64,000 nt of DNA from an uncultured Spirochaetales bacterium (lineage in GTDB: Bacteria; Spirochaetota; Spirochaetia; Sphaerochaetales; Sphaerochaetaceae), in NCBI GenBank assembly GCA_944388965.1, contig CALXKL010000002.1, forward strand, positions 1 through 64,000, in the 5' to 3' direction. Below the pieces are notes generated by a model. That model worked only from the letters and a program-made list of their open reading frames with translations, was not told the origin of the DNA and made no database searches. Below, piece after piece: positions 40,743 to 62,300 of the stretch (the first letter of the stretch is position 1; each line of letters starts with the position of its first letter). A program made the position numbers and the translations under genes.

Positions 40743-41608
40743 TTACACTCCGTATTTGGATGCAGCTTCGCTTACCTGTTCAATCGATATTCCGGTAACC
40801 CGTTCTATCTCCTCAGGAGAGAGAAGCTTCTCCTTCAATAGTGTCGCGGCAATCTCGGCCCTGACCTCAGCCTTACCCTTTGCCATGGCCTTTTCACTGA
40901 TCTCTCTGTTGTTCCTTGCGACGAATTCCTCGAATTCCGTACTCATCTCTATTCTTGTCTCCTTATCTGTCCTGATCTTTTCCAATGATTTCCGCAGTGC
41001 CCCATAGTGCATTTTCGACGGATCCCTCTGCTTGAGATCCTCGAAGAGCTTCGTCAGATCATCATCGCCACGGTATGAGGCATTGGCGAAGATATCGTGC
41101 TGCCATCTTCCAGAGGTGTTCCATCCTTCATCAGATATGTGAAAATGTAAATTGGTTCACCACGCTTTGCAACGTCCCAGTCGCAGATGAAGATGACATA
41201 GCGGTCTCGCAGCTCATCATAGTTCTCCTTCCCTGCCTCGAGATTCGAATTCGTAAGTACCGACATGTAAAATGAAGCCCTCTTGGGAAGATCCCTCTTG
41301 TTCGTCTTCTGGATTTCGACATCGAACAATGTGCCATCCTGTCCCCGGGCAAGTATGCCGAAACGCACGGAATGCGAATCTAGACTCTTCACGGATTCCT
41401 GAATCCGCACATCCTCCACATCAAGCCCTTTTTCCATCCCGAGTATGCACCTCAGGATGAGCTGTATGGCGTCCCTGTCATTTCGGAAGGCATAGGAGAA
41501 TACAAAGTCGTCGAACAGGACGAGCCTGTCGATCCCCTCCCGTATTCTCTCCTCTCTTCCTCCGTTATCATGAATGATCTCCTCCTTGTAGAGTGTCGAC
41601 TGATACAT
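40743..41608 (-). pseudogene. Rpn-family nuclease/transposase, single frameshift
   Basis: Two frames join into one Rpn protein of about 288 aa. The first (ATG 41608) carries the PD-(D/E)XK core: FDDFVFSYAFRNDRD, then FGILARGQDGTLFDVEIQ (the D...ExK-like EIQK site), to YIFTYLMKDGTPLEDG. Near 41100 one base is missing; the next frame continues HDIFANASYRGDDDLTKLF, the normal family sequence, through ALRKSLEKIRTDKETR to a tail nearly identical to that of the neighbouring remnant (SPEEIERVTGISIEQVSEAA). These elements are small, multicopy and mobile by RecA-independent exchange. Confidence 0.75.
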
Positions 41609-44767: not shown

Positions 44768-46021
44768 TTAAAATCTGTATCCGAGCTTGATTCCGAATGC
44801 CAGTTTATTCAAGCTCGAAGATATCTCAGCAGATATCCCGTTCCAATCAACACCAAATGAAAGCGTGGAGAAACCGAGCCGGGTCTTGATACTCAGCTCA
44901 TCATTGATGTCATAAGCAAAGCCTACCTTCGGGATTGCAAAGAAATCATACTTGTATGAAGGGATTTCATTCGACCATATGACCTGATTGATTACATTGC
45001 TGAATTCAACGACAACATGATACGGACCATAATCCCAGAGTGCTCGAAGAATGAGATCCATTGGCTGGTAATACGTATCAGGATCCTCATCGAATCCGTC
45101 GTAGTCGACGAAATCGGTCAATGACAGATCATAGAACTTGCGGAAAGAAGCGACATTGGTCAAATCAAGCGTGAATGCAAGAGTATCATTATGCCTGTAC
45201 ATTGTTCCAAAATTAAGTGCAAATCCAAGCCCGAACTTGAAATTCTCACTGAAGGCAAGAACCGGGTTGTCTTCGAATCTTGAAAGCAGAAGATTGTTGT
45301 TCAGAATAGAATTCTGCATTAACGCCTGCAACTCCATGCTTACACCAAGCGTCAGGCGTTGAGAAAGCACATGAAAGGCGTAACCTATATCGCCTCTGAC
45401 ATCGACATTCAGCAGATTGGACCCGGTGGACAACAGGTTTTCACTTTCCGTAAAGCCGATGTTTGACGATAACTGCCATCCAAATCCGTTGCCATAGATG
45501 GCGCCTCCATACAATTTAAGACCAAGCCTCGCAGCACTGTACAAAGCAGGAGAATCAGGACGATTGAACAAGTCGGTATTCTGGGCTGCACTCAAGACAG
45601 CCGAAGCCTTCTGTGCTGAGTCGAATCTATTTGCAAACGAATCCTCGATATAGGCCCTGATTGCCCCGATGTCATCCGAAGCAGGCAGGTTTTCAGGATT
45701 ATCAAAGTTGAATATGGTAGATAGATATGAACCATATTCTGCCCAGAAACGTTCATCACCATTCATCATTGTCGAATAAAGATAATCGATCTGGTCATCC
45801 AAGGCACCGGAAGGCCCGGTAAGAAAGGCAAGATAATCCACTGCACTGAACGCATCAATCTCAAACCCGAAATGCGTTACCTCATGCTCTTCTATCAATC
45901 TGGCAGGCGATGTGAATATGTCAGTGTTGTCATAATACGGATCCGCATATGGCATAAGAGATGCAAAGGACGAACAGATTCCGAAAATGGTCAACACGAA
46001 AATTGCCAAGACTTTCTTCAT
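44768..46021 (-). CDS. Outer-membrane beta-barrel protein
   Basis: A 417-aa protein with a signal peptide (MKKVLAIFVLTIFGICSSFA) and amphipathic strands throughout, ending KLGYRF with the C-terminal Phe typical of BamA substrates. Shape and length recall FadL/PorV-like barrels, but no signature settles it. The ATG at 46021 has AAGGAGG upstream; a longer frame to 46054 adds only an unsupported head. It is last in the six-gene surface operon and more AT-rich than the genome core. Confidence 0.7.
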   Translation of the reverse strand: MKKVLAIFVLTIFGICSSFASLMPYADPYYDNTDIFTSPARLIEEHEVTHFGFEIDAFSAVDYLAFLTGPSGALDDQIDYLYSTMMNGDERFWAEYGSYLSTIFNFDNPENLPASDDIGAIRAYIEDSFANRFDSAQKASAVLSAAQNTDLFNRPDSPALYSAARLGLKLYGGAIYGNGFGWQLSSNIGFTESENLLSTGSNLLNVDVRGDIGYAFHVLSQRLTLGVSMELQALMQNSILNNNLLLSRFEDNPVLAFSENFKFGLGFALNFGTMYRHNDTLAFTLDLTNVASFRKFYDLSLTDFVDYDGFDEDPDTYYQPMDLILRALWDYGPYHVVVEFSNVINQVIWSNEIPSYKYDFFAIPKVGFAYDINDELSIKTRLGFSTLSFGVDWNGISAEISSSLNKLAFGIKLGYRF

Positions 46022-46040
46022 TACAGCCACCTCCTTCACA

Positions 46041-47801
46041 TCAATTCGATTCAACTGGTGTTAAATACCAGCAATATTCGTTGTCTACAGAATCACCATC
46101 AAACTGCAAGTATTGCGGCTCTGCATTTTTATATAGTCCTAACTTGGCAAGTCCAGTACCAACATTTTTGAACTTTATATAAGGTTGCATATAATATTTT
46201 CCTGATTCGTCTTTTAATATACGCTCCAAAAATGCAAACGTCGTCGAGGTCTCAACAGTCTGTCCCATTGCGGTAGATTCCGTAACCGTTGTAACGATAT
46301 CTTTCTCAGCTGGTGTCGTATCAGGATTTACAATATGCCAACTGGAAACACTCACATTTCCCATCGAATTCCATTTCTTTGAATTGATCAGATATGCCTG
46401 CTCTTGTAATGGACCTGGATTAGTCAGGCTTTCTGGATTAGGCAGTCCCTCGGATGCGTCGATCAATGGCATGATTCGCAAGTCTGTTCTACCACCAGAC
46501 GCATCGTCTTCCGGACTAAGGAATACGTAATATGGAAATGAACTTCCATCTGGAGCCGAATCCACATCAACAACAAAATTTGTCGATGTAGTCGCCCCAA
46601 TCATCGGTTTCAATTCTCCTGTCCAAGAATAACTTGTTCCAGCGAAACCCTTTGTTATTATTTCAACTTCACATGAAAAAACGAAACTATCCTCTGTGCG
46701 GGTAAGTATGATTTCAAGTAAGCCGTAATCAGTATCGCTATCAAGCTGGGAAATATACAAAATATCTGTATAATTTAGAAAACCAATCTTGGCTTTTGGT
46801 GCGCCTGAAACAGAAATCTTGTATTTTGAAAAGTCCACATCATCAGCGAAATCAAAATATATGAATGCACTTCGATAATTCTTTTCGATTGTTTTAACAA
46901 TCAATGGAATCGTACACTTGATTATGTTACTTCGCTGAGTATTCGAGGTAACATAAAACTCGCCTGTTTCAAGGCTTTTCAACTCATCAAATGAAATAAT
47001 TGCTTTACCATCTTTGTTCTGGATGGAAGTCAGCAATGGGTCTGAGTCACCAATCTTATATAAAGAGACACTTTCATTTAATGGGATACCAGATGCTTCG
47101 AATCCAGATGAAGACATTTCGAGATGAATTGTTGAAGCAGTCTGCGAGTCATATGAAGGAATTGATAATTCCTTATGCTTACTATACTCATCATCTCCTT
47201 TAAGTGTCTGGAAAACATATGCAACATATTCCTTCTCTGCTTCTAACCCATCAACTAGAATGACAGAACTATTTTCACTGATAACATATTTAGAAAAATC
47301 ATCTCCATTAGCTGATGCAACAGTGACATGATATACGACAGAGTCTGTTGGCAATGAAGAATTGATTCGTATTTCTACACTGGTTTCATATCTTGCAGAC
47401 ACATACGCATCAGGGATGGATTCACTAAGTGACAATGCGTAATCAACAGACCCAATCGACACCCAATTGGCTGTTTCATTTGCTGTGATATCAGCGCTTG
47501 CATATATTTCGATTGTACCTTGAGGAAGCAAACCTGAAGTTATTTCAAAACTATACATATCGTTGGCATACTGGAAACCAGTTTCTACAAGCTGACCACC
47601 TGTCACCTGATACGCATATTTTTTCGCATATGCAACTGGAGTGAATCCAATTTTAATTGTCTGCCCAGTGGAACTTAACACTCTGACAGATGATTCGACG
47701 TTATCCTTGATTTCTACTTTAGGCAGATTGCCGATGATCTCGGCAGAGCATGAAGCAAAGAGTATCAGAAGGGATGACAACAGGATCACAATACGTTTCA
47801 T
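46041..47801 (-). CDS. AT-rich surface lipoprotein
   Basis: A 586-aa predicted lipoprotein (leader ending LILFASC, lipidated C18) followed by repeated beta-sandwich-like stretches (SVRVLSSTGQTIKIGF, SVEIRINSSLP, YTDILYISQLDSDTDYGLLEI). Probably several FnIII-like domains, none of them canonical. The sequence is clearly lower in GC than the genes on either side of the locus. It lies 19 nt upstream of the barrel gene. Function unknown. Confidence 0.6.
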   Translation of the reverse strand: MKRIVILLSSLLILFASCSAEIIGNLPKVEIKDNVESSVRVLSSTGQTIKIGFTPVAYAKKYAYQVTGGQLVETGFQYANDMYSFEITSGLLPQGTIEIYASADITANETANWVSIGSVDYALSLSESIPDAYVSARYETSVEIRINSSLPTDSVVYHVTVASANGDDFSKYVISENSSVILVDGLEAEKEYVAYVFQTLKGDDEYSKHKELSIPSYDSQTASTIHLEMSSSGFEASGIPLNESVSLYKIGDSDPLLTSIQNKDGKAIISFDELKSLETGEFYVTSNTQRSNIIKCTIPLIVKTIEKNYRSAFIYFDFADDVDFSKYKISVSGAPKAKIGFLNYTDILYISQLDSDTDYGLLEIILTRTEDSFVFSCEVEIITKGFAGTSYSWTGELKPMIGATTSTNFVVDVDSAPDGSSFPYYVFLSPEDDASGGRTDLRIMPLIDASEGLPNPESLTNPGPLQEQAYLINSKKWNSMGNVSVSSWHIVNPDTTPAEKDIVTTVTESTAMGQTVETSTTFAFLERILKDESGKYYMQPYIKFKNVGTGLAKLGLYKNAEPQYLQFDGDSVDNEYCWYLTPVESN

Positions 47802-47904
47802 AGACTATCCTCGATTTAAACATAATAGGCACAATCAGCCTGATATGTTCGATTACCTAGAAGATAACATACAAAACTAAATCGAAATGTTCAACAACTA
47901 TTGT

Positions 47905-48654
47905 TTAGAATAGCTTGATATACAGTCCGAATCCATCGTAGTCCTCATATCGAGGATATACGCCCATCTGATAGTATAAACCCAGCTCTATCCTGAAGAG
48001 CAGAAGATTCGCCTTTACTGAAATGGTAGGTCTAATCATCAGACCGTTATGTGAAAGGTAGAATACGCTCGGCTCATCCGAACGCTCGATATACTGCAGG
48101 TAATAGCCGAAATCGACTGCCAGCTTCACTTCCTGCCAGTCCTGGCTCGTGATCACATACTCGAACGAAAGACCGTTCTCCCAGCTGAACTCGAGCGTGG
48201 CGAACCGTCCGGTCTCGGAGCCCAGAGGAGAAAGGAAATAGTCGAATCTGGTGTACAGGCTGTACAATGTGACACCGTTCCTGTATCCGAAGGCCAGCGT
48301 ACCGCCAGGGACGAAGTCCGTTCCCCTTAGCAGCGTCACATGTGCCATGCCATCGAAGAATATACCCCGCTGACGGAACGGCTCCTCAAGCTCGAAGTCT
48401 TTGATGAGGGATAGCCTGACCTCCTCGACAATCTCGTCCTTGAAATCTTCCGACAGATACATCTCGACATCATTGGAGACCTCGATTGTCTGGACGGTCT
48501 GGTCGACGGACCGTCTTATGGCATCAAGCCGCTCTGAATTCAAGGTGCTGCTGGTTTCAGAAGGTACGTCAGACTGCGTCGGCTCATCCACCGCCCACAG
48601 CATGGACATGGATGATACAAGAGCAAGGAGCAAGACGATGGCGATCTTCTTCAT
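47905..48654 (-). CDS. Small outer-membrane beta-barrel-like protein
   Basis: A 249-aa protein with a signal peptide (MKKIAIVLLLALVSSMSMLW, then AVDE), a short helical stretch (about 40-85, possible coiled coil) and then about eight beta-strands ending GFGLYIKLF. The terminal Phe and strand pattern suggest a small outer-membrane barrel, perhaps with a periplasmic N-terminal helix. The start overlaps the preceding lipoprotein stop by 4 nt. Not recognised. Confidence 0.6.
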   Translation of the reverse strand: MKKIAIVLLLALVSSMSMLWAVDEPTQSDVPSETSSTLNSERLDAIRRSVDQTVQTIEVSNDVEMYLSEDFKDEIVEEVRLSLIKDFELEEPFRQRGIFFDGMAHVTLLRGTDFVPGGTLAFGYRNGVTLYSLYTRFDYFLSPLGSETGRFATLEFSWENGLSFEYVITSQDWQEVKLAVDFGYYLQYIERSDEPSVFYLSHNGLMIRPTISVKANLLLFRIELGLYYQMGVYPRYEDYDGFGLYIKLF

Positions 48655-49094
48655 ACTTCAGCCGTCCCCAACCATACAAGAGTATAAATGCCCCTGCCGG
48701 CAACACTCAACTGCAGACTCTCGATACCGTTGTCGGCGGATGCACTCCACACGAATGTCGCATTCACCCTCACGGCAGGATCGCTGTCATCGGTGAATAC
48801 CATGGTGCCGCTCGCCTCAAGCACGTCATACGTCGAATACGTAATATGGCAGACACCTTTTTCCGGAAGGATGTCTTCATACGAATCGTACCCTTCGAAC
48901 GTATAGGCACCCGTCGCATCCAGATTGAACTCCATATAAAGCTCGCTCATCGAGTTCTCCACATACATTCCGTACTTGGCCTCCATGAGCGTGTTCGGAA
49001 TCTGGGATGTGAACTTGTACTGCGGTATGTACTCGCAGGATGAGAGCAGGAACGCCACCATGAGAACGACGACAGTTCGGATCAGGTTCTTCAC
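48651..49094 (-). CDS. Small lipoprotein of the surface operon
   Basis: A 147-aa predicted lipoprotein (leader ending AFLLSSC, C20) with a single beta-rich domain. It overlaps both neighbours by 4 nt (ATGA-type junctions), so its translation is coupled to the large FnIII lipoprotein upstream. Not recognised. Confidence 0.62.
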   Translation of the reverse strand: MKNLIRTVVVLMVAFLLSSCEYIPQYKFTSQIPNTLMEAKYGMYVENSMSELYMEFNLDATGAYTFEGYDSYEDILPEKGVCHITYSTYDVLEASGTMVFTDDSDPAVRVNATFVWSASADNGIESLQLSVAGRGIYTLVWLGTAEV

Positions 49095-51343
49095 AATCTC
49101 ACCTCATAACCGGCACTCTCGCCGCCTTCATGCGTCTGCGTTATCGAATAGCGTCCTGTGAACGCATTGTTCGAGACGGACAGACCTCCGAAATCTATCA
49201 CTCCAGGATACATCCCGCCGATTCTGAAAGGACCACCGCTTACAGTGCCGCTTCCGGAAAGCGACACGACCATGCTATATCCTGCAGATTCGGAGAGATA
49301 GAAGTCCAGATCGAAATGCGTAGGAGCCTCGGAGTAGTACCTGGTATAGCTGAACGACACGTTTCCACCGATACCCTGGGCCACTGCATTGTATGTAATG
49401 GTTCCAGAACTTCCCGCCGGCGCCCCGCAGTTGCCCACAAGGCTCTCGCCTCCGACCGTCGCAGAACCCAGACTTCCCATTCCCTGCTGACTGATATATC
49501 CCCAGATCGAGCTCTTGCCGCCGGAGACATAGTCGGGATGAAGATCAGGTGACTCCCACGGCTTGAGAAGATGGGCCTCGAACGCATCTATATAGGCTTC
49601 GCCGGTGATGGCACCATAGCCATCGACAGAATCTGATTGGCCGCTTTCTCTTCCAAGGGCATCTCTTGCGACAGCCGTATAGGTATAGACCTGCCCCACC
49701 CTGGTGCCGTCATTGTCGTAATACGTGGAATCTGAGGTGATGAATTTCACTGGATCATCACCCTGGGTAGCTATCCCGTCTTCGACACCGGTCCTGGTGA
49801 TCACGTAATCCGCAGGCTTGTAGCTATCATCTGGAACACTCAGAGCCAGCTCCACAGGGAAGACCCCGTTGCCGTTTGCCGTCATGAGACTGCGCTTGTT
49901 GCTGCTTGCCGTGATCGTGGGAGTGTCTGGAATACCGTCGATGGTTGTGACGATGGAGCTCCTGCTCTTGAGCTCTCCGCTTCTGCTGGCGGCGGAAGCA
50001 CCAGGATTGACCGTCCTCACCTCGAAGCGCCTGATCTCGTCCTTATAAGCATCGTCAGATGCAGACTCGGCACTGACGGGGAAATCATAATCGACAAGTT
50101 CCGATTGCGAAAGGATTTCGGTTTCGACCCTATCATCTTCTCTGGTTATCGTCACCTCATACTCCCACTGCGTCTCGGCCTCGTCGGCTCCGACAGGAAG
50201 TGTCACGCCGATGTCGAACCCTCTTCCATCCTCCTTCGGCGTGAATGTAAGCTCCTGCGGAGGCGAGAGAAGATATGCCGTCTGGACATTCGCCTGCGAC
50301 ATCCCGGTATTGTTCTGGGCGACGATGGAATACGTATAGACGACGTTCTCCCTTATGTCTCCCGGATCCTGGATGTAATATGTCTGGGATGCCTCGTCGA
50401 ATGGAAGCTCCTCCCCGGGATATGTCGGGAATATGACCGTCTCGCTGCTTCCAGGATAGCTCCTGGTCACGGTGTATGTGATCGGATCCTCCTCCGTCTC
50501 CAGTGGATCCTTCGCCCACCTGACGACGATTCCGTCTATGCTGTCGCCTTTCGTGACATCGTCGACCTCAGGAGTCGCAGCTGCGCCGATGACCCTTGTG
50601 TATCCGCTTGTGACAGGACTCCTGTCGTTCGATACACTGCCGTTGCCGCCACTTGCAGCTACGGAGAAGTACAGGTTCTTTCCAAGATCGGCCTGTGGAA
50701 CGACATAGCTGTAGCTGTTGGAATAGCCGTTGGGCTCTCCGGAATCGATCTGGGGGACTGTAGCCACAAGATCTCCAATGGCGACCGTGTCCGAATTGTC
50801 CGACGAGTAGACGTAATACTTCTCGACTCCAGGCATCTGTGTCCATGTCAGAGTGATCCTGGCGGTATCGACGCCCTTCGTCGCTTCGATGACGTCCGGA
50901 GCGGACAGTAGAGAGCCATAGCACATCGTGGACGTCTCCCCTGACTGCATTCCCACATACGTATGTGCAGTGACCCTGTATGCATAATAGTAGCCAGGCC
51001 TCAGGTCGGCATCGTCGTCTTCGTAGCGCAGGGCGCTGGGATAGTCGTATATCGGTGTCCATGCAGCCCTTGCGACATCGGCCTGGGTCGGCGTGACGCT
51101 GAATTCGGCTCTCTCAAGCGAATAGTAGTCGGCACCTGCAACGGCAGACCAGGAGACGACTATCCTGTCCTCGTAATAGGACTTGGTCGCCATCGGTCTC
51201 GACGGAGCCTGTCCTGAGAAGACCACCTCCTTTGGAGGATTGTAATCATTGCCAAGCTCAGGTGCCGAGCCGACCATCAGATCCAGATTGCACGAGACAA
51301 GCAGACAGGTCATGAAAAAGATGAAAGGAAGAAGCTTTCTCAT
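49091..51343 (-). CDS. Large FnIII-repeat lipoprotein
   Basis: A 750-aa predicted lipoprotein (leader ending CLLVSC, C18). About five FnIII-like domains follow, marked by recurring strands such as VSWSAVAGADYYSLERA, LTWTQMPGVEKYYVYSS and VYTYSIVAQNNTG. The last 170 residues are Gly/Ser-rich and of a different character (SGSGTVSGGPFRIGG). FnIII repeats in such proteins usually display or bind at the cell surface. It overlaps both flanking genes by 4 nt. Confidence 0.75.
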   Translation of the reverse strand: MRKLLPFIFFMTCLLVSCNLDLMVGSAPELGNDYNPPKEVVFSGQAPSRPMATKSYYEDRIVVSWSAVAGADYYSLERAEFSVTPTQADVARAAWTPIYDYPSALRYEDDDADLRPGYYYAYRVTAHTYVGMQSGETSTMCYGSLLSAPDVIEATKGVDTARITLTWTQMPGVEKYYVYSSDNSDTVAIGDLVATVPQIDSGEPNGYSNSYSYVVPQADLGKNLYFSVAASGGNGSVSNDRSPVTSGYTRVIGAAATPEVDDVTKGDSIDGIVVRWAKDPLETEEDPITYTVTRSYPGSSETVIFPTYPGEELPFDEASQTYYIQDPGDIRENVVYTYSIVAQNNTGMSQANVQTAYLLSPPQELTFTPKEDGRGFDIGVTLPVGADEAETQWEYEVTITREDDRVETEILSQSELVDYDFPVSAESASDDAYKDEIRRFEVRTVNPGASAASRSGELKSRSSIVTTIDGIPDTPTITASSNKRSLMTANGNGVFPVELALSVPDDSYKPADYVITRTGVEDGIATQGDDPVKFITSDSTYYDNDGTRVGQVYTYTAVARDALGRESGQSDSVDGYGAITGEAYIDAFEAHLLKPWESPDLHPDYVSGGKSSIWGYISQQGMGSLGSATVGGESLVGNCGAPAGSSGTITYNAVAQGIGGNVSFSYTRYYSEAPTHFDLDFYLSESAGYSMVVSLSGSGTVSGGPFRIGGMYPGVIDFGGLSVSNNAFTGRYSITQTHEGGESAGYEVRL

Positions 51344-54300
51344 ACAGGAGCTACTCCTACAGTCTGCGCTGCAATGCTGGCTGAAGTTCCATCCGGACGT
51401 GTCAGATCATATGACCCGCTGCCATTTCCCGGGGTAACCGTATTGTAGACAAGAGAAACTCGACCATAGCCTAAAGGAAGGACAGCATTAATCACATTGC
51501 CGTTTTTCGACGTGACACTCGAAATAGTATTGTTCACTACTGCACTGCTACCAGAAATGTTCAGGTCGATTCTTCCAGAGACCATTATTCCTGCAACCGA
51601 GAAATACTCCATTTCAACGAAAGCATTACGTCTATCGGAAAGGCCTGCATAGGAGATGATGATATCTGCAGATATTGATGACACCTTATCTTCCCCATCA
51701 ATATCCACTACACCAAAATCTCTTGAATATGGATCCTGTCCTGTCAGTGTCTGCCACCAATCTTCATCATAATGCTCGTTCGGGTAACTGATTGCATTGG
51801 AAACGACTGTATTCACCAAGTTGATTATTTCAATGTCTCTAAGGGCAACAGGCATAAGGGAATCATTGGTTATAGGATGAGAAACCTTGTCCGTCTCATA
51901 CTCGATTCTGTCGTTCCTGCATGAAACGGACAAATCGATATATACGGAGCCAAGAATCGTCGGTCTTACCATATACACATTGATGAATCCATCTTCCTTG
52001 TAGGCCTTGCCATCAACAATGTCGGATTCGTCGATTGAGCCTTCTTCGATGCTATCGGCATCCACTACAAGCGAACCGGATCTGAGTGAAGACGAAATCA
52101 CATAATCCGTCGCAAACGGATTCTCTCTGAACGACACCCGATAGTAGTATTCGTCATTTGTGGAAAGCTCCTCGACGCTGAACTGCTCGGGATGGTAGAG
52201 CGGGAAGCCGACATTGTCCATGAGACCGAAATCGGAAGTGTCGGTATCTTTGAAATGGTTCTGCAACGGCCCCTCTATTCCACCGATCATTGACGAGACC
52301 GTGTATTCGTAATAGTCGTTAGTCGCTCTGCTCCCACTATTCCTGTCTGCTATCTGATATGAGTTGGACCTTGTGTATGCGACGAACTGCCAATCGGAAT
52401 CAGGGTCATCATAGACTCTTCGATATACATTGTAGCCAGAAACGCCATCGACAGCAGACCAGCCGATGGTCGTGATCTCCGAACTCTCCGCCTTGCTCGC
52501 CACGATATCCATTGGAGGCTTCACCCAATATCCTTCGACAAGGTCCGTGCCGCTATCGGAGACCTCGCTGTTGAACTGAGGGAAGATGCTGAACCAGTAG
52601 CTCTGTGACAGGGCATATCCGCCTATGGCGGAGACATCCTCTGCAGAGAATGCATATGACATGTCGGCACTTGCAACCACACGCTGCTCCGCTATCGGTG
52701 GCTGGGATGCATCGGAACTGGAATACACCCTGATGACGTACTGGCTTGCACCGGGAACGGCATTCCACTTCACGAGTATCGAATCGCCGTATTCGCCTTT
52801 CGACACATTGACGACTATCGTGGCGGGACCGAGCATGTTCCCTTCAGCGATATTCTCTGGAAGCGGATCCCTGCCGGAGACATCTCCAGCCCCATCGACC
52901 GGCCTGACGACGAACTGGTATGTGCGGCCTGCAGAGCTGGTCCCGGCGTCACGCGTGAAGGAATACGAATACAGTCCCGTTGCACTGTCGTAGAAGATTG
53001 GACCACCATCCTCCGCACCCGCTTCGGTGAACTTCTCATCACCACGCAGCCTGAAATACACCTTGTACAGATCGGCGGTACTGGCTCCTTCCACACCTGT
53101 CCACGTGACAATTATTCTGTCGGAGTATTCGCCCTTTGTCGCACTGATTCCGGAGACGGGGTCCATGCTCTTTGCAGAGAGATATCTGTATTGGGTGCTG
53201 TCTCCCTGGCTGGCTGCAAGAGCATAATAGTATGTCCTGCCATCCTCGACATCCGTGTCATCATAGGAGTTGTTCTCGAAGCCACTGCCGTCAATCAATG
53301 TGCTACCGGAATAGTCCGAGGATTCAGAGCGGTACAGGCCTATGGAGACACCTTCGGCTTTCTCGAGTGTCCAGCTCAGTTCGACATGGCCGGCGAGATT
53401 CTCCGAAGCCACGAAACCCGCGATGACGTTTGCAGACGGATCCGTGGAGACGACGTTCTCGGACAGACCGTACTCCGATTCGATTTCTCCTCGGATGACC
53501 TTCACGCGGTAGGAATAGTCGTGGTTGCCGGAAGTCCCGGTCGTAAGCGTCGAAGTCACTGTGACTTTCGAGTTGTCCGTCTCCGATGTACTGAAGGTCG
53601 AATCTTCGACATCCACCCACTCGGGATCATCCGAAGCGAATGTCGTCTCCCTTCTCTCCAGAACGACTTTATCATCCTCTTCGATGCCGAACGGGAAATC
53701 GAACGTCACCGTTTCAGTGAAACTGTTCTCAACCTCCTCATCCGCCTGGATAGAAGCCTGCACATTCACCGGAACGCTGAAGATGTGGGCGGAATTCGAC
53801 TGGGCCGCCTCGTCTTCATCCTGGGCGTTGTAGGCGTTGCTGTCGCTGAAGTAGTAATAGCTGACAACCGAATAGGTGTAGGAGACATTGGCAAGCAGAG
53901 GATGCTCTTCGGATCCTCTGTCGACCAGATGGAAATAGTCTCCATCGAATTCCATCGAAAGCTCCCGGCTTTGCACCTCGACTCCCTCTTCACTTCCGTC
54001 CTGGGTGCGCACTATGGAGAATCTGCGCTGTACGCTGTCGTCAAGACCGTGCTTGACAGGCGGGGCCGTGAACGAGACCAGGATGCCGTCCTTGCCGGAC
54101 ATCTGCGCATTGACGCTCTCGAGGGCATCGGGATATGCATCGGCATCCGTAGTGAACGGCTCGGGGGATGTCCATTCGGCGATCATCTCCCTGTCGGATA
54201 TCTCCTTGTCGCCGTCATCGTCGAATCCCATCCGGACAGTAAGTGTGTATGAGGAGCTGGGGGCGAGTTCGCCGGGAAAGTCATAGGATGGGGTGCTCAG

Positions 54301-54870
54301 GAAAAACGATTCCCTCTCCTCCGTCTCGACGTTTGTGAGCGTCACATGGAACTTCGGATCGGCCAGCATCCTTCCGTCATACACGACAGAGGGATATCTG
54401 ATGATGATTCTCAACCTGTTTCCGGAAAGGACGGTCGAGACGTCATCGATGTTGTTGATGGTGGATATGAACACGGGCTCGCTCTCCGCAGACAGGCTGT
54501 TCCTGCCGGAAGAGACCATGGAGGCGACTCTTATCAGGTATATCTCGTCGGCCCTCACGGTGAACGTCGTCTGGGGAAGGACGGACGGAATCGTGGAGCG
54601 CTCGCCGGTGAACACCTCCTCATCCGTCTGGTAGTAGACGATATAACCTGTAACGGAATCCACACTGTCCCAGCTGACGGACAGCGTGACCTCGTCTGCA
54701 CCCTGCTGTCTTGCGGCGACTGCGACCTTGACGTTCTGTGGAGTCGACGGGCTCTTGACGACTTCGGCTTCGGCCTGCTCTCTCGGCTCGATGGCAAGAG
54801 AGCAGGAGATGAAGGAAATCAGCAGGATTGAAATTAACAGACAAATTCCTACAACTTTGCCTAGTTTCAT
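51340..54870 (-). CDS. Very large FnIII-repeat lipoprotein
   Basis: A 1176-aa predicted lipoprotein (leader ending ISFISC, C23), first gene of the leftward operon. Six or more FnIII-like domains are visible from repeated core strands (LSVSWDSVDSVTGYIVYYQ, LSWTLEKAEGVSIGLYRSE, IVTWTGVEGASTADLYKVYF, VKWNAVPGASQYVIRVY, IGWSAVDGVSGYNVYRRVY). The C-terminal 200 residues are distinct, more AT-rich, and contain IEIINLVNTVV and later VLPLGYGRVSLVYN, echoed in other proteins of the locus. It is probably surface-exposed; the ligand is unknown. Confidence 0.75.
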   Translation of the reverse strand: MKLGKVVGICLLISILLISFISCSLAIEPREQAEAEVVKSPSTPQNVKVAVAARQQGADEVTLSVSWDSVDSVTGYIVYYQTDEEVFTGERSTIPSVLPQTTFTVRADEIYLIRVASMVSSGRNSLSAESEPVFISTINNIDDVSTVLSGNRLRIIIRYPSVVYDGRMLADPKFHVTLTNVETEERESFFLSTPSYDFPGELAPSSSYTLTVRMGFDDDGDKEISDREMIAEWTSPEPFTTDADAYPDALESVNAQMSGKDGILVSFTAPPVKHGLDDSVQRRFSIVRTQDGSEEGVEVQSRELSMEFDGDYFHLVDRGSEEHPLLANVSYTYSVVSYYYFSDSNAYNAQDEDEAAQSNSAHIFSVPVNVQASIQADEEVENSFTETVTFDFPFGIEEDDKVVLERRETTFASDDPEWVDVEDSTFSTSETDNSKVTVTSTLTTGTSGNHDYSYRVKVIRGEIESEYGLSENVVSTDPSANVIAGFVASENLAGHVELSWTLEKAEGVSIGLYRSESSDYSGSTLIDGSGFENNSYDDTDVEDGRTYYYALAASQGDSTQYRYLSAKSMDPVSGISATKGEYSDRIIVTWTGVEGASTADLYKVYFRLRGDEKFTEAGAEDGGPIFYDSATGLYSYSFTRDAGTSSAGRTYQFVVRPVDGAGDVSGRDPLPENIAEGNMLGPATIVVNVSKGEYGDSILVKWNAVPGASQYVIRVYSSSDASQPPIAEQRVVASADMSYAFSAEDVSAIGGYALSQSYWFSIFPQFNSEVSDSGTDLVEGYWVKPPMDIVASKAESSEITTIGWSAVDGVSGYNVYRRVYDDPDSDWQFVAYTRSNSYQIADRNSGSRATNDYYEYTVSSMIGGIEGPLQNHFKDTDTSDFGLMDNVGFPLYHPEQFSVEELSTNDEYYYRVSFRENPFATDYVISSSLRSGSLVVDADSIEEGSIDESDIVDGKAYKEDGFINVYMVRPTILGSVYIDLSVSCRNDRIEYETDKVSHPITNDSLMPVALRDIEIINLVNTVVSNAISYPNEHYDEDWWQTLTGQDPYSRDFGVVDIDGEDKVSSISADIIISYAGLSDRRNAFVEMEYFSVAGIMVSGRIDLNISGSSAVVNNTISSVTSKNGNVINAVLPLGYGRVSLVYNTVTPGNGSGSYDLTRPDGTSASIAAQTVGVAPV

Positions 54871-54923
54871 ACAGAAGGCTTTTTAATGGTTTTGTGAAAT
54901 AAAAGCAATAGGAGAACCAGATT

Positions 54924-55035
54924 ATATTACAATTGGACAAGAAAATGTCAAAATAACGAACAGATTGTCTAATTTATTGTCCTGCAAGAATTTTCCTCGA
55001 AAGAGCCTTGAACAGCTATTGAATGTTATTATACT
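54924..55035. promoter_or_regulatory. Divergent promoters of the surface locus
   Basis: Leftward: -35 TTGACA (54946-54951) with -10 TAATAT (54924-54929, 16-bp spacer). Rightward: -35 TTGAAC (55008-55013) with -10 TATACT (55030-55035, 16-bp spacer). The AT-rich 55 bp between the two -35 elements includes two ATTGTC direct repeats that could bind a shared regulator. Confidence 0.6.
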
Positions 55036-55065
55036 TTTCATTAGGATTCTGTTCGGTAAATGTGT

Positions 55066-56925
55066 ATGAGAGCTAGACGAACTCTGGTATACATCCTGAC
55101 AATCCTGTCCCTTGCCCTCTGCTCTTCCTGCGATATCGAATATCGGGACAGTGCAGATGCCAGTGTATCCATCCTTGTCGACGGGAATGTCAGACCCGAC
55201 ACGATGAAGGTGAACCTCGTCACAGGACAATCGGGCGTGGTGTACAGATCCGTCATGGCCGATCCGTCGACGGAATCGGTCGTCTTTCCCGCCCTTCTCT
55301 TCGGAAGCTACACGGTCAACGCCTATGGATATGTCTACGACCACAGCGGAGAGAGGCTCGTCGCCATGGGGACGGCGGAGCTTACAACCGAGGACAAGGG
55401 AGCCAACTCAACATCACTCACGCTCTCCCCTATAACCGACTCATCCTACACAGGTACGGTGAAGGCCGAGATTCTTCTGGAAAAGGACAGGAGCATAAGG
55501 ACGGCTGCCGATACCCTCTCCCTGATCTCCAACGGCCAGGTGCTGGCGACAAGGGACATAGCAGGTACCGGCTCCCAGCCCTACATGTTCGAAGAGGACA
55601 TCCCCTGCATGACCACTGCCAAGGCGCATTTCCAGATCTCCATAGGAGACTACCCTGTCGGCAGCAGCGAGGAGTTCGACCTGGCAGTATATGCCGGACA
55701 GACCACCGACCTGGGCCGCGTGGACATCATCCCGGACGAGGACGTGGTCATCATCGACAGCGTGAAGGTCGAGTATTCGAAGACGTCGTCGGACAGTCTG
55801 GAGTACTCCTTCATCCCGCCGGATTCCACCACTGGATACAGATGCGTCATCGTCAGATACGGCGATGGACAGGCGACCTACTCCTTCGAACTGTCCAAGG
55901 AGGAAATCGATGAGGCGACAGGCGACGGGATGTTCTACACTGGCACCATCTCCGGCCTGAGGGAAGGCACGTTGTACTCTGTCGCCATAGGAATCGAGTT
56001 CGAGGATGGAAGCTTCTCCCCGTTCGTCCAGGGGGAAGGAAGCACGACGGTCCCGCTGAAGAACGTCAGCATCAACAGGATACCCGAGGACATGCAGCCG
56101 AGCGATTCCTGCCAGCTCACGCTGTCCCTCAACCCGTCAGATGCGACGGACCTGGGCGGCACCTGGACGAGTTCGGACGAATCGGTCGCCAGCGTCGACC
56201 AGGACGGCCTTCTCACGATAACCGGATACGGCCAGGTGACGATACGCTACACGGCGGCAAACGGCAACAGGTCTGCCCGGCTCGCGATCAACATCAGTCT
56301 TACAGCCCCCGAGCTCGCACTCGTCCCTGGAGATGATTCGATCCTCCTCTCCTGGACATCTTCCGTACATGCGGACTCCTTCGAGATCTACAGGAAGGAG
56401 AGCGGGCAATCAGGAGACGGGGACCTCATGGCGACAACCGAAGACCATTCATACATGGACAAGGACATCCTCTCAGGACACACATACACCTACAGGATCA
56501 AGGCCACCGACACGGAGCATGGCGTATCTGCATGGAGCGACTGGAGCGCTGATGTCGCATTCAAGCCTGCAGTGATCGAAATCTCTGTCGAGAAGCCCGA
56601 ATCATTGGCGATTGTCATGAGTGGAATGAGCCAGGACCAGATGATCGGACCTGACGACGAGATTCAGGTGTCGGTCAACGAAATCGAAGGTATAGTCGGC
56701 TACGGATGGTTCATCAACGACAAGCTCGTTTCAAACGAGAGGGAGTTCATCCTCGATGGAAGCATGTCGGTATTCGACGTGTCGCAGGAAGCCGGTACAC
56801 AGCTTCTCACACTTTATTTGTACAGCGCAGACGGGAAAATCCATTCCGGCTGTCTGAGGTTCATCTACAAAGATGCACCTGATATTGAAAAGACTTTGTT
56901 TGGATATAGAGGAAACGAATCATGA
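55066..56925 (+). CDS. Big_2/FnIII lipoprotein (paralogue 1)
   Basis: A 619-aa predicted lipoprotein (leader ending LCSSC, C22). The order is: an N-terminal beta domain ending LSPITDSSYTGTV; a FnIII-like domain; a Big_2-type domain (LNPSDATDLGGTWTSSDESV and ASVDQDGLLTITGYG); a FnIII domain (LSWTSSVHADSFEIYRKE); and a PKD-like C-terminus (YGWFINDKLVSNE). The same order recurs in the next gene, so they are paralogues. The start is ATG 55060 or 55066 with no strong ribosome site. It overlaps the next gene by 4 nt. Confidence 0.75.
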   Translation: MRARRTLVYILTILSLALCSSCDIEYRDSADASVSILVDGNVRPDTMKVNLVTGQSGVVYRSVMADPSTESVVFPALLFGSYTVNAYGYVYDHSGERLVAMGTAELTTEDKGANSTSLTLSPITDSSYTGTVKAEILLEKDRSIRTAADTLSLISNGQVLATRDIAGTGSQPYMFEEDIPCMTTAKAHFQISIGDYPVGSSEEFDLAVYAGQTTDLGRVDIIPDEDVVIIDSVKVEYSKTSSDSLEYSFIPPDSTTGYRCVIVRYGDGQATYSFELSKEEIDEATGDGMFYTGTISGLREGTLYSVAIGIEFEDGSFSPFVQGEGSTTVPLKNVSINRIPEDMQPSDSCQLTLSLNPSDATDLGGTWTSSDESVASVDQDGLLTITGYGQVTIRYTAANGNRSARLAINISLTAPELALVPGDDSILLSWTSSVHADSFEIYRKESGQSGDGDLMATTEDHSYMDKDILSGHTYTYRIKATDTEHGVSAWSDWSADVAFKPAVIEISVEKPESLAIVMSGMSQDQMIGPDDEIQVSVNEIEGIVGYGWFINDKLVSNEREFILDGSMSVFDVSQEAGTQLLTLYLYSADGKIHSGCLRFIYKDAPDIEKTLFGYRGNES

Positions 56926-59789
56926 AACAGAGACTGCTGATCATTCTTTCAGTGATTTCAATCGTCTTCACCCTTGCCTCCTGTGAGCAGGCACAGCCTG
57001 AACAGCAGCTGACGCAGAGCGTGAACATCACACTGGCAAATGTTGCAGACCCCAACGCCAGGACCATCAGGCCGGAGGAATACGAATCGCCTGACAAGTA
57101 TGATGTCACACTGACAGAGGTGAGTGCCGCTGCGGAAGGCGACTGGACCGAGGTTCCTGACAGTGGAAAAACGAATACCTGGAATGTAGGGGCGAGCGGC
57201 AATTCGATCACCTTGGACAACGTCGCCGTGGGAAACTACAAGGTCAGCATCATCGGATTGACCGATGCCGATGTCAAGGTGTTGTCAGGATCATCCAATG
57301 ACGTACTCTCCGTCACTCCGGGAAGCGTGAACAGCATCACCATCAAGCTTTCGCCTATCGAAAAGGGAGAAGGCCTCACGGGTACTGTAAGAATCGATAT
57401 CGACTGGACACAGGCAAAGGATTCTGACAGATTCAGTGAGCTGTTTAAAGAGGGGCTGACCGTGAAGATGAAGGACCTCAAGACGGATAAAGAACTCGGG
57501 GCCAAGACCTCTTCATCGGATGATGTAAATGGCATGACGCTTGAAGTAAGCGTAGCCGTCACCCCAAGCCAGCAGGTCTACTTCGAACTCTGGTCCGGTG
57601 ATACGCTCATAACGAAGAATCTCAGAAGAAGCGTCATCTGGGTATCCTCAGGCAATGTCTCCGTCCCGATGGATGGCGAAAGCAAAATCATCATAGACGA
57701 GAACGATCTGGCTTATGGTGTGAACGTCAAGAATGCCAGCTGGAACTACAACACCGAATCATCCCAGTATGTCGACATCACATGGGACAACGTCTTCTTC
57801 GGTGGAAGCTGCCTTTTCGACAAGGTGGTCGTCTATTATGAGCCGGCCGATGGAGGTACTGCCAAAAGCGGATCAGTAGAAGTCATGGACCTTGATGGGG
57901 AAAAGGGGGCTGTGACGTTGAAAGACCTTGAGACCAATGTCGAGTACAAGATCTATATCCAGGCTTATCATACGAACGGTCTCATCTCCTCCAAGGATCC
58001 TCTTGAGGGAACCATCACCACTAAAGTAGTCGTGGACGGCATATCGATTACGCCTTCTTCGCTTGGAAGCGCTATCGAAATCGAAGGAAAGGCGGAGCTG
58101 ACGGCAACCGTCACGCCAGAAAACGCCAGCGACAAGTCTGTCACCTGGATCTACGACAAAGCAGCATTCTCCGCCGACTCCGATACATCCGATTCGGGCG
58201 TCGCAAAGTCTTTCACTGCAAAAAAGGCCGGTGTATTCACCATAGAGGCCAAGACGAATGACGAACTGGCAACTTCAGTCGACCCCGCAAAAATCAAGGT
58301 CAAGGTCAATCCGGCTGCTCCTACAGTCGAGAAGAAGTCTGACAACATCACTGTAAACTGGGAGGCAGTCTCCAATGAGGATGCGACATACACCCTTTAC
58401 AGGATTGCGGATTCCGAAGATGCTCAGGTCATCGTCACCCAGAACATGAATGTCACCCGCTATGAGGACAAGGACATCTTCTCAGGTGTCACCTATTCCT
58501 ACTATGTCGTCGCAACTGTCGGGGAAGACACGCTGACCAGCAAGACCTCGTCTGAAGTCGATATGCCTGAAAGCGTGATCGGTATCACTCTTCCGAATGC
58601 AGGTGCATCCCTTGACATCAACCTCAGGTCCGAAGATGGAATCCTTGCACTTACAGACGAGAACAGCATCACCCTCTCTGCTGTCGACAAGGATGGCTAT
58701 CCTCTTGAAGGTTATACCTACGCCTGGTATGTAGACCTCGTTTCTGAACCAATAAGCGAAAGCAGCACTCTCGTTCTCAACATGAAAGAGCACGGACAGT
58801 ATTTCTATCCGGGTGTCGTTGAGCAGGAGATAATACTGGAACTCACCAAGGGAGGAAAAACATACAGTGGATCTGTCACGGTCCATGTCCTTTCCGGAGA
58901 TGTCCCTGCAGAATCGATTGTCATCTCCCTGCCTGAAGGACAGGCGACAAGGCTTTCCACAGAGGATGCTGACGGAAATCTCAGAAAGATTCCCCTGACC
59001 ACTGTCGTGACTCCGAATTACACGACTGAGGAAATAACCTACGAGATAACTCAGACCTTGACAGAAGATTCCCCTGTCAAGGGTAATATCGTCGATGTAC
59101 AGAACGGAAATCTGGTGTTCTCAGGAGCAACAGGCGAGGTGACGATAAAGGCAAAGACTTCAAGTGGCAAAGAGTCGAATGCCATTGCCTTATCGGTGTA
59201 TAAGGCGACAGTTGATTCAGCCGTGCAGATTGTTAATTTGATCAATACTGAATGGGCAAAGCATTTTTCTGTTGCTGACTCATCAGCTTATTTTGACTCC
59301 GATTGGGCAGTAACAAACGTTGCTTGGAATACAAAGACATATCAAGATGAGAGTGGTAGTTTCTTTTTCCAAAGAGCTCTAACAACCATTAATGATGGCG
59401 ACTCCTATGCAACAATTTCAAATGCAAGAATTAAGATTACGGAAGAAGAAAATAATGATATTATTGTGACTTCCAATGGTAATATCGGCTTCTCTCTGAT
59501 TGATGGAGAAGGAGCTCTTACTATTGGGACAGAAGTAATTAAGATTATTTCTGTCAACAACCAAAAACTAACTGTCAGGCTACCATTCAATCAGGGAACA
59601 GCAACCATCTCATATGAGAGCATCAGAGTCAAGGATGATAGCGGTAACAACACTCGTGGCGGCTACTATTCTGTGGATTTCTCATCCGACATCCTCGGCA
59701 TCGATGGTGTCAATCTTGACCGCACTGGTGACAACAAGATTAATGATGCAACGGAAGCTACAAACATCACCAAGCTCATTTACGGTTGA
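56922..59789 (+). CDS. Big_2/FnIII lipoprotein (paralogue 2)
   Basis: A 955-aa predicted lipoprotein (leader ending FTLASC, C21). The order is: N-terminal domain ending LSPIEKGEGLTGTV; a FnIII-like domain; Big_2 (SITPSSLGSAIEIEGKAELT and onward); FnIII (NITVNWEAVSNEDATYTLYR); a PKD-like YTYAWYVD domain; a second Big-like domain; and an extra C-terminal module (IVNLINTEW to GGYYSVDF). From about 59200 to 59590 the DNA turns sharply AT-rich and then recovers within the same frame, suggesting acquisition or exchange of that segment. It ends before a strong terminator. Confidence 0.77.
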   Translation: MKQRLLIILSVISIVFTLASCEQAQPEQQLTQSVNITLANVADPNARTIRPEEYESPDKYDVTLTEVSAAAEGDWTEVPDSGKTNTWNVGASGNSITLDNVAVGNYKVSIIGLTDADVKVLSGSSNDVLSVTPGSVNSITIKLSPIEKGEGLTGTVRIDIDWTQAKDSDRFSELFKEGLTVKMKDLKTDKELGAKTSSSDDVNGMTLEVSVAVTPSQQVYFELWSGDTLITKNLRRSVIWVSSGNVSVPMDGESKIIIDENDLAYGVNVKNASWNYNTESSQYVDITWDNVFFGGSCLFDKVVVYYEPADGGTAKSGSVEVMDLDGEKGAVTLKDLETNVEYKIYIQAYHTNGLISSKDPLEGTITTKVVVDGISITPSSLGSAIEIEGKAELTATVTPENASDKSVTWIYDKAAFSADSDTSDSGVAKSFTAKKAGVFTIEAKTNDELATSVDPAKIKVKVNPAAPTVEKKSDNITVNWEAVSNEDATYTLYRIADSEDAQVIVTQNMNVTRYEDKDIFSGVTYSYYVVATVGEDTLTSKTSSEVDMPESVIGITLPNAGASLDINLRSEDGILALTDENSITLSAVDKDGYPLEGYTYAWYVDLVSEPISESSTLVLNMKEHGQYFYPGVVEQEIILELTKGGKTYSGSVTVHVLSGDVPAESIVISLPEGQATRLSTEDADGNLRKIPLTTVVTPNYTTEEITYEITQTLTEDSPVKGNIVDVQNGNLVFSGATGEVTIKAKTSSGKESNAIALSVYKATVDSAVQIVNLINTEWAKHFSVADSSAYFDSDWAVTNVAWNTKTYQDESGSFFFQRALTTINDGDSYATISNARIKITEEENNDIIVTSNGNIGFSLIDGEGALTIGTEVIKIISVNNQKLTVRLPFNQGTATISYESIRVKDDSGNNTRGGYYSVDFSSDILGIDGVNLDRTGDNKINDATEATNITKLIYG

Positions 59790-59973: not shown

Positions 59974-60465
59974 TCAGCGACTTGTCAGAATTATCTCCTC
60001 CGATGTCGCAGTACCGTCATAGTTCAATACATCCATTGACAATGTGACAGTTCCATCCTTATTCAACTTGAAGTAATACACAGCAAAATGAATTAGTCCT
60101 TCTACATTTTGTCTGACAGATAACGAATACTCTCCATGTACAGGGCTTGTCGCTTCATAAGATACCTCATAGGACAATCCATTTTCTCTGGCATATACTT
60201 CATTCGAACGAATCGTCGAATTCACCAGGTTAATCATGGATACACCCATAACGGAAAAGTCATTCGATGAAATGATGACAGTTCCTGTCTCTCCTGAACT
60301 ATCTTTTCCATCATATACTCCAATGAGCTCTTCTGGAAAACTGGCCTTAACTTCCACGACTCGAATGTTGCTTTGAGGCTCCTTGTTATTGTTTTCACAT
60401 CCCAAGAGCAGCATAAAGATACAAGCTAAAACCAACAAAACCACTGTACACCTTTTCATTTTCAA
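59974..60465 (-). CDS. Small lipoprotein related to the surface locus
   Basis: A 163-aa predicted lipoprotein (leader ending MLLLGC, C23). A single domain contains GVSMINLVNSTIR followed by strands ending GTVTLSMDVLNYDGTA. The INLVN stretch and following pattern echo the C-terminal modules of the 1176-aa and 955-aa proteins, so it may be a free-standing version of that module. AGGAGG lies 7 nt before the ATG. AT-rich. Not otherwise recognised. Confidence 0.65.
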   Translation of the reverse strand: MKMKRCTVVLLVLACIFMLLLGCENNNKEPQSNIRVVEVKASFPEELIGVYDGKDSSGETGTVIISSNDFSVMGVSMINLVNSTIRSNEVYARENGLSYEVSYEATSPVHGEYSLSVRQNVEGLIHFAVYYFKLNKDGTVTLSMDVLNYDGTATSEEIILTSR

Positions 60466-60884: not shown

Positions 60885-62300
60885 ATGCCTCACGTGAGCA
60901 CGATTGAGACCAGTCAGACGACAACCAACAAGATACTCGACGGCGTCATCTGGAAGGGGATACTGAGCTTCTTCTTCCCCATCCTGCTGGGTACGTTCTT
61001 CCAGCAGCTGTACAACACGGTCGATGCCATCGTAGTAGGCCAGTTCCTGGGCAAACAGGCACTTGCAGCCGTGGGTGGCGGCACATCCACCATCATCAAC
61101 CTGCTGATCGGATTCTTCACGGGACTGTCATCCGGAGCCTCGGTCGTAATCAGTCAGCGCTATGGCTCGGGCAGGATGGACAGGGTCTCGAACGCCATCC
61201 ATACGGCGATCGCACTGTCCGTTGTCGGCGGCATCATCATAACGGTCCTGGGCCTTGCCATGACGGACTTCTCGCTGGCACTCATCGACACGCCGGAGGA
61301 CGTGCATCCTCTGGCCGCCCTCTACATGAAGATATACTTCGGCGGTTCGCTCACGCTCGTCGTCTACAACATGGCCTCCGGAATCTTCCGCGCCCTGGGC
61401 GACTCGCGTCATCCGCTCTACTTCCTCATCGCCGGCTGTGTAACCAACATCGTGCTGGACGTCGTGCTCGTCGGCTTCGTGGGAATGGGTGTCGAGGGCG
61501 CGGCGATCGCCACGGTCTTCTCCCAGCTGGTATCCGTGGTGCTGTCCATCATCTGGCTCAGGAAGCTGCCTGCCGCCTACAGGCTCAGCATAAGGAAGAT
61601 CAGGTTCATCAGGGTCGAGTTCGTCGACATGATGAAGATCGGCGTGCCTGCCGGCATCCAGTCGATCATGTACACGATCTCCAACCTCATCATACAGACC
61701 AACATCAACTCCTTCGGAACCGACACGGCGGCCGCCTACTCGGCATACGGCAAGATCGATGCCACATTCTGGATGATCGTCAACGCGTTCGGCATCGCCA
61801 TGACGACGTTCGTAGGACAGAACTACGGTGCGGGCAAGATCGACAGGGTGAAGAAGGGTGTAAACCAGACGCTGCTCATGTCAGGGGCGACGACTATAGT
61901 CATCTCCGTGCTCTTCTGCGTCTTCGGCCGCTATGCCTACCTGCTCTTCACCTCGGACGAGGCGGTGATCGACATCGGCATGCAGATACTTCTGTTCATC
62001 GTGCCGACCTACATAACCTATATCGCCATCGAAATACTCTCCGGCGCCATCCGCGGCGCAGGCAAGGCCTTCGTCCCGACGGTCATCTGCATCACGGGAG
62101 TGTGTCTGCTGAGGATCATCTGGCTGGAGGTCGCAGTGCCCATCTACAGGAGCGTGTACACGGTGTGCGCAGCCTACCCCGTCACCTGGACGGTCACCAG
62201 CATCCTGTTCCTCATCTACTACAAGAAAGGTGCCTGGCTCGAGGACAGGCACCATGAACTGAAGCTGAAGTGGCTTAAGATGAAGCACCACAGAAGCTAG
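60885..62300 (+). CDS. MATE-family multidrug/toxin efflux transporter
   Basis: A 471-aa inner-membrane protein with 12 predicted membrane spans in two homologous halves (FPILLGTFFQQLYNTVDAIV early, GVPAGIQSIMYTISNLIIQ at the start of the second half). This is the DinF/NorM-like MatE fold that exports cationic compounds using Na+ or H+. No Shine-Dalgarno precedes the ATG at 60885; a GTG three codons later is an alternative. Its TAG stop shares the CTAG at 62297-62300 with the thrC stop. Confidence 0.88.
   Translation: MPHVSTIETSQTTTNKILDGVIWKGILSFFFPILLGTFFQQLYNTVDAIVVGQFLGKQALAAVGGGTSTIINLLIGFFTGLSSGASVVISQRYGSGRMDRVSNAIHTAIALSVVGGIIITVLGLAMTDFSLALIDTPEDVHPLAALYMKIYFGGSLTLVVYNMASGIFRALGDSRHPLYFLIAGCVTNIVLDVVLVGFVGMGVEGAAIATVFSQLVSVVLSIIWLRKLPAAYRLSIRKIRFIRVEFVDMMKIGVPAGIQSIMYTISNLIIQTNINSFGTDTAAAYSAYGKIDATFWMIVNAFGIAMTTFVGQNYGAGKIDRVKKGVNQTLLMSGATTIVISVLFCVFGRYAYLLFTSDEAVIDIGMQILLFIVPTYITYIAIEILSGAIRGAGKAFVPTVICITGVCLLRIIWLEVAVPIYRSVYTVCAAYPVTWTVTSILFLIYYKKGAWLEDRHHELKLKWLKMKHHRS

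Follow-up and report, generated by a model that had tools for sequence, protein, structure and literature searches.

A C-terminal module with a probable history of its own and AT-shifted silent sites in a surface-type lipoprotein gene of an uncultured spirochaete

Mosaic surface-protein genes are a known product of recombination between species and of fusions that unite tandem paralogs, while in spirochaetes antigenic variation is served by systems such as vlsE, Msp and tprK. The 955-aa lipoprotein gene considered here (L955) resembles the mosaic genes in its breakpoint at a domain border, its conflicting trees and the chimeric alleles found at one locus, but differs from them in that the exchange would have taken place between species only 20-45% alike at the locus and would involve a module with a family-wide silent AT shift. 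With vlsE, Msp and tprK it has in common a variable surface-type protein in a spirochaete, whereas no silent cassettes or border repeats were found for L955. In architecture, rather than by sequence comparison, it recalls surface lipoproteins with an Ig/FN3 stalk, such as the leptospiral Lig proteins (PMC7821625): both are spirochaete lipoproteins with Ig-like or FN3 repeats and an extended stalk. L955 differs in ending in a module that matches no Pfam family and is confined, in our searches, to one spirochaete family. Finally, bacterial accessory genes are richer in AT than core genes (Bohlin et al., 2017, PMC5303225), and the present lipoprotein cluster and module are likewise AT-richer than their core neighbours; in contrast to the genome-wide gene sets with which that abstract deals, the AT shift here lies within a gene, in one domain and at a recurring position. 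The locus is of interest as a probable case of a lipoprotein locus replaced between uncultured spirochaete species, within which the terminal domain would have been replaced separately.

The window, that is, the whole stretch of 64,000 nucleotides that was analysed, belongs to a 97%-complete genome of 2.1 Mb in 17 contigs (G000), which was compared with a genus-level set of 16 genomes. Its features, with coordinates in the window, are the following:

56922..59789, plus strand: 955-aa lipoprotein gene (L955), an ORF with same-genus orthologs, made of an N-terminal signal, an fn3-containing body and a C-terminal module
57759..58007, plus strand: fibronectin type III domain, aa 280-362 (Pfam PF00041 fn3, E 1.5e-7)
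59196..59786, plus strand: C-terminal module of L955, aa 759-955, with a supported history of its own (identity changepoint against G008; profile family A3)
59208..59603, plus strand: AT-rich core of the module, GC3 0.29 (GC3 segment fit; positional dip common to relatives)
59604..59786, plus strand: conserved module tail, GC3 0.56 (identity 87% to G008, 80% to G009)
55060..56925, plus strand: L621, 621-aa tandem neighbour (Big_2 and fn3), resembling the L955 body and without the module
51340..54870, minus strand: 1176-aa fn3 lipoprotein gene, divergent, the second module-bearing gene (ORF; Pfam; profile search)
51343..51855, minus strand: second module copy of the genome, at the C-terminus of the 1176-aa gene (profile search)
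49091..51343, minus strand: 750-aa FN3-like lipoprotein gene of the same cluster, whose C-terminal domain has no GC3 dip (negative control)
44768..48654, minus strand: rest of the cluster, encoding a 428-aa outer-membrane-barrel-like protein (OMP_b-brl match below the family cut-off), a 586-aa lipoprotein and a 249-aa exported protein
60885..62300, plus strand: 471-aa gene, presumably a MATE-like transporter, forming the conserved flank of the variable locus (71-84% identity in G008, G009, G010 and G011)

The lipoprotein-type signal of L955 ends in LASC (motif read by eye), a putative lipobox. Big_2 is matched in L621 only, and fn3 in L955 as well. A scan for promoters and terminators gave nothing informative.

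The preliminary description had reported that L955 passes from a GC-rich into an AT-rich style at about 59200 and returns to the earlier style at about 59590 with the frame intact, and this reading is confirmed. GC3 is not uniform along the gene: the best single-segment fit covers codons 763-894 (nt 59208-59603), which agrees with the earlier edges to about 15 bases, with GC3 of 0.29 inside against 0.60 outside and an LLR of 22.2, compared with a permutation maximum of 13.2 (0/500 permutations as extreme). The reading frame is open across the whole segment, the shift involves most amino acids (K and G are exempt), GC1 is also lower (0.43 vs 0.51), GC2 is nearly unchanged (0.39 vs 0.40), and GC3 is back to 0.56 in the last 61 codons. 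The surroundings are not uniform either, since GC3 is already reduced to 0.50-0.53 at aa 556-762 as compared with 0.60-0.68 upstream, and beyond 59700 total GC remains at about 0.39-0.49 as far as about 60900, across intergenic DNA and a 163-aa gene, so that low GC is not limited to the segment. Among the 176 ORFs of at least 192 aa on the 279-kb contig, L955 holds the third-lowest 132-codon GC3 window and the tenth-largest contrast between a window and the rest of its ORF, a ranking based on a greedy ORF caller in which several competing ORFs resemble frame artefacts (by eye only). An overlapping gene in the segment is ruled out by 4-15 stops in each of the five other frames. The motif INLVN, after which the module had earlier been named, belongs elsewhere: L955 reads IVNLIN, and the literal letters occur in the 1176-aa gene and in the 163-aa ORF. 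The latter, a lipoprotein-like AT-rich ORF at 59974-60465 (GC3 0.40), has a 67% ortholog in G014 and is absent from the other 17 relative loci examined; despite the common INLVN letters, BLASTP (E 0.26) rules it out as kin of the module.

In a comparison between species, with one genome per species, a single identity changepoint between L955 and its G008 ortholog was placed at aa 759 (nt 59196), with identity of 0.33 before and 0.70 after it (LLR 42.6). By region, identity to G008 is 18-45% up to aa 762, 62% over aa 763-894 and 87% over aa 895-955; the corresponding values are 13-34%, 52% and 80% against G009, and 21-47%, 26/16% and 29/42% against G002 and G011; and the last 60 aa are 60% identical to those of G014. 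Triplet maximum chi-square analysis of G008 or G009 vs G002 or G011 gave p <= 0.001 in 4/4 comparisons; three of these break at aa 742-767 and the fourth, G009 vs G002, at aa 855, while triplets with G014 break elsewhere (584-589 and 702-706) and three control triplets are without a break (p 0.15, 0.76, 0.35). Taken together, the composition step at 59208 and the homology step at 59196 identify the left edge of the segment with the border of the C-terminal module. The right edge, at about 59590-59603, is no breakpoint: codon usage alone changes there and homology reaches the gene end, and since identity rises to 80-87% up to that end, the unit of exchange is the entire C-terminus rather than a 400-bp insert. 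Domain shuffling, as proposed earlier, therefore survives at the left edge, where the identity break and the conflicting trees described below speak for it, but not at the right edge, where similarity to G008 and G009 rises and the second breakpoint suspected near 59590 does not exist.

Alignments and profile searches show the module to be a discrete C-terminal unit, about 170-195 residues long, found at the end of two kinds of multi-domain lipoprotein; it is the last domain in all 24 aligned genes. The whole L955 protein is matched in 7/16 genomes of the genus set (own genome included), a profile built on seven modules finds copies in 10/16 genus genomes and 22/101 family genomes, and profile A3 (24 members), which also recognises the G008 ortholog of the 1176-aa gene as a module gene, has matches in 50/139 genomes of the order set (5/22 genera) and in 7/296 genomes of a phylum set that was sampled evenly, and all seven lie within the same family. 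Pfam gave weak matches only, each family being matched by no more than one of the 24 members; NCBIfam had no match for the whole L955 protein, a PDB sequence search gave nothing better than E 0.13, and an AlphaFold2 model from three sequences was unusable (mean pLDDT 34.5). Judged from these comparisons, none of the libraries searched describes the domain, which is confined, within the genomes covered, to a single spirochaete family; a literature search on mosaic spirochaete lipoproteins found nothing on this module family. The C-terminal domain of the 750-aa gene is ruled out as a relative of the module (hhalign probability 2.4).

The AT shift was measured across the module family, with the remainder of each gene supplying the expected codon usage per amino acid; one module hit was dropped because its remainder was too short. 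Module silent sites lie at or below the GC3 expectation in 24/24 genes (one tie, z -0.0) and fall below z -2 in 16 of them, although in several of the 24 another window of the body is equally low or lower. Over the last 175 codons, the mean z is -3.26 in the 24 module genes, as compared with +1.15 and -0.17 in control genes of at least 500 codons from the own contig and from other loci (46 each), and the difference from the 92 controls (Mann-Whitney p 1.5e-9) rules out a general fall of GC3 towards 3' ends. Two controls at other loci fall below -3, namely a 986-aa lipoprotein of G092 and the ortholog that G008 has of the 1176-aa gene, and so do two on the own contig, L621 and a 591-aa ORF that looks spurious. 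Held-out module genes are negative in 27/32 cases (mean z -1.61, t-test p 2.6e-5) and without a dip in the remaining 5/32, one of which reaches z +3.2; all these p-values are optimistic, as related species are not independent. The dip occupies the same position in both paralogous gene lines, at module codons ~20-120 with recovery towards the end, and the lowest GC3 window of the 1176-aa gene falls in its module (0.36 vs 0.65), whereas no such dip is seen in the C-terminal domain of the 750-type genes (mean z -0.06 over 14 genes). Module GC3 also tracks that of the host (logit slope 0.70, r 0.87) and lies below it even in AT-rich hosts (0.16 vs 0.31 in G010). These data show that the silent sites of the module core are recurrently shifted towards AT.

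The history of the locus was approached through trees. Two core proteins, which we take to be MutL and CysS, place G000 and G014 as sister species with support of 100/100 (G003 and G004 were left out of the species tree) and are 86% and 88% identical between the two, as opposed to only about 25-40% for the large lipoproteins. The module tree, from which rows under 120 residues were dropped and which was repeated without the long branch G080_L561, pairs G000 with G008 (94/92), with G009 next (93/95). A G000+G014 constraint is rejected (AU p 0.0044), as is the grouping of the four L955-type genes (p 0.0034), while a G009+G014 constraint is not (p 0.089), and no branch is starred. The body tree places the one gene that G009 and G014 each have here with the L621 genes (100/99), and G000_L955+G008+G009 is rejected (p 1.3e-5). 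The MATE gene and the 1176-type gene are separated by 0, 1 or 2 genes, depending on the species: in G009 and G014 a single gene, which combines a body of L621 type with a module of L955 type, stands in place of the L621+L955 pair, an L621-type gene being the source of the body in these chimeras, and G010 has neither gene. It seems that the whole lipoprotein cluster (44768-59789) moves as types and that the L955 module breaks the cluster type, the L955 body siding with G002 and G011 and the module with G008 and G009. The bodies of the 1176-aa gene fall into the groups G000+G002+G011, G009+G014 and G008+G010, all of them starred or close to it and again at odds with the species tree; the discordance of that gene's own module is not significant (AU p 0.08).

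These comparisons support the view that L955 is a mosaic in which module and body have different histories. On balance, L955 is probably a mosaic whose module, a discrete end domain, was joined to its present body by past recombination, among related species as well as between L621 and L955 as tandem paralogs. Domain order suggests that the lipid anchor and the Ig/FN3 body form a stalk and that the module may be its surface-exposed tip; such a tip could meet a changing partner (a host ligand, a neighbour cell or a phage), which would favour tip swapping, and recombination within the locus would trade tips and bodies between species. The AT-richness would then have two sources, a standing tendency of the module and, in the present gene, an origin near an AT-richer, G008-like version.

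A first alternative assumes no exchange at all: a slowly evolving, essential domain, kept by purifying selection, would sit on a fast-evolving body, and its low GC3 would reflect codon or mRNA selection. The high conservation that the last 60 aa show in G008 (87%), G009 (80%) and G014 (60%) and the family-wide, position-specific dip are what one would expect from it, and part of the tree conflict could be mimicked by lineage-specific rates. It is nevertheless unlikely, because the module of the sister G014 stands further off than those of G008 and G009, as rejection of the sister constraint indicates, module conservation does not extend to G002 and G011 (16-42%), and chimeric genes exist. Moreover, codon choice in the G008 and G009 modules is near independence (z 1.2), which rules out a conserved silent-site element in the segment.

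Another idea is that some functional property of the DNA or mRNA keeps the silent sites of the core (codons ~20-120) rich in AT in both paralogous lines and in dozens of species, irrespective of host GC; the core could be a preferred recombination or strand-opening site for tip swaps or a stretch that tunes translation before the tip folds, and its AT-richness would then be no trace of transfer. We regard this as a tentative and rather improbable proposal. A frequently exchanged unit and a standing preference of the core both fit the AT shift, and the data do not tell the two apart.

According to a further alternative, the AT-rich segment was imported recently and carries the composition of an AT-rich donor. 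The sharp GC3 step, the close agreement of GC3 with that of the G008 module (0.29 and 0.28) and the fact that the closest module is found in G008, although the sister species is G014, would fit such an event. However, the dip is not confined to the carrier, occurring across the family and in both gene lines; module GC3 follows the host and stays below it even in G010, which the average of a donor would not do; high silent-site identity to a donor is missing, the closest relative reaching a codon identity of 0.55 at conserved residues; and the tail is equally close to G008, yet has GC3 of 0.56. A recent import is for these reasons quite improbable, and AT-richness does not serve as the import mark for which it had been taken, since the same dip stands at the same place in most module genes of the family and a single recent import cannot explain a dip that is family-wide and position-specific. 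This is a warning against a shortcut: a sharp AT-rich segment mimics a fresh import, where here it is a recurrent property of a domain.

Antigenic variation had also been suggested, and its usual, programmed form, in which silent cassettes of the same genome feed gene conversion, would suit a surface-type lipoprotein at a locus with 0, 1 or 2 genes by species. This possibility is very slight, since the 97%-complete genome holds only two module copies, about 16-26% identical, with no silent or multiple similar cassettes besides, and no repeats flank the module borders (exact seed 9). Least credible of all is an assembly chimera of the metagenome bin, which the metagenomic origin of the relatives' records and the 17 contigs of the window genome would allow, because the frame is intact, G008 has the same gene order, the same module place and likewise 955 codons, and the dip lies inside the module, away from a contig edge.

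Returning to the mosaic reading, the age of the shared module can be approached through silent sites. At conserved residues of the G000 and G008 modules, 55% of codons are identical vs 39% expected from independent choice (132 codons), and 45% of conserved codons thus differ. The silent-site excess is 0.26 (z 3.9) for the module of this pair, compared with 0.08-0.12 for three core genes of the same pair, a contrast of about two standard errors by our own estimate, and with 0.27-0.29 for two core genes of the sister species; with the sister G014 the module has no excess (-0.08). The shared module thus seems, on these codon comparisons, younger than the split from G008, yet not recent. The modules of G002 and G011 are far from all others, and it may be that they, and not that of G000, were replaced; this would produce much the same picture, so that the exchange may have run in either direction.

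Mobile DNA does reach the locus, as indicated in G008 by three overlapping tyrosine-recombinase genes about 670 bases downstream of the L955 gene. These genes, of 341, 354 and 408 aa (L051:12861-16102, minus strand), of which the outer two match Phage_integrase and the middle one was recognised by eye, resemble a recombinase-in-trio element. On the same flank, an IstB-like ATPase gene and an Abi_2 gene, again of mobile or defence type, adjoin the 3' end of the G002 ortholog (L053:69-1227). In the window itself, a gene at 41054-41608, about 3 kb from the cluster, encodes a 184-aa PD-(D/E)XK nuclease family transposase (PF12784), perhaps a remnant, as it covers only profile positions 2-122 of 229. 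Within the cluster, the 586-aa lipoprotein gene (46041-47801) is AT-rich throughout, with GC3 of 0.32, the lowest of 194 contig ORFs.
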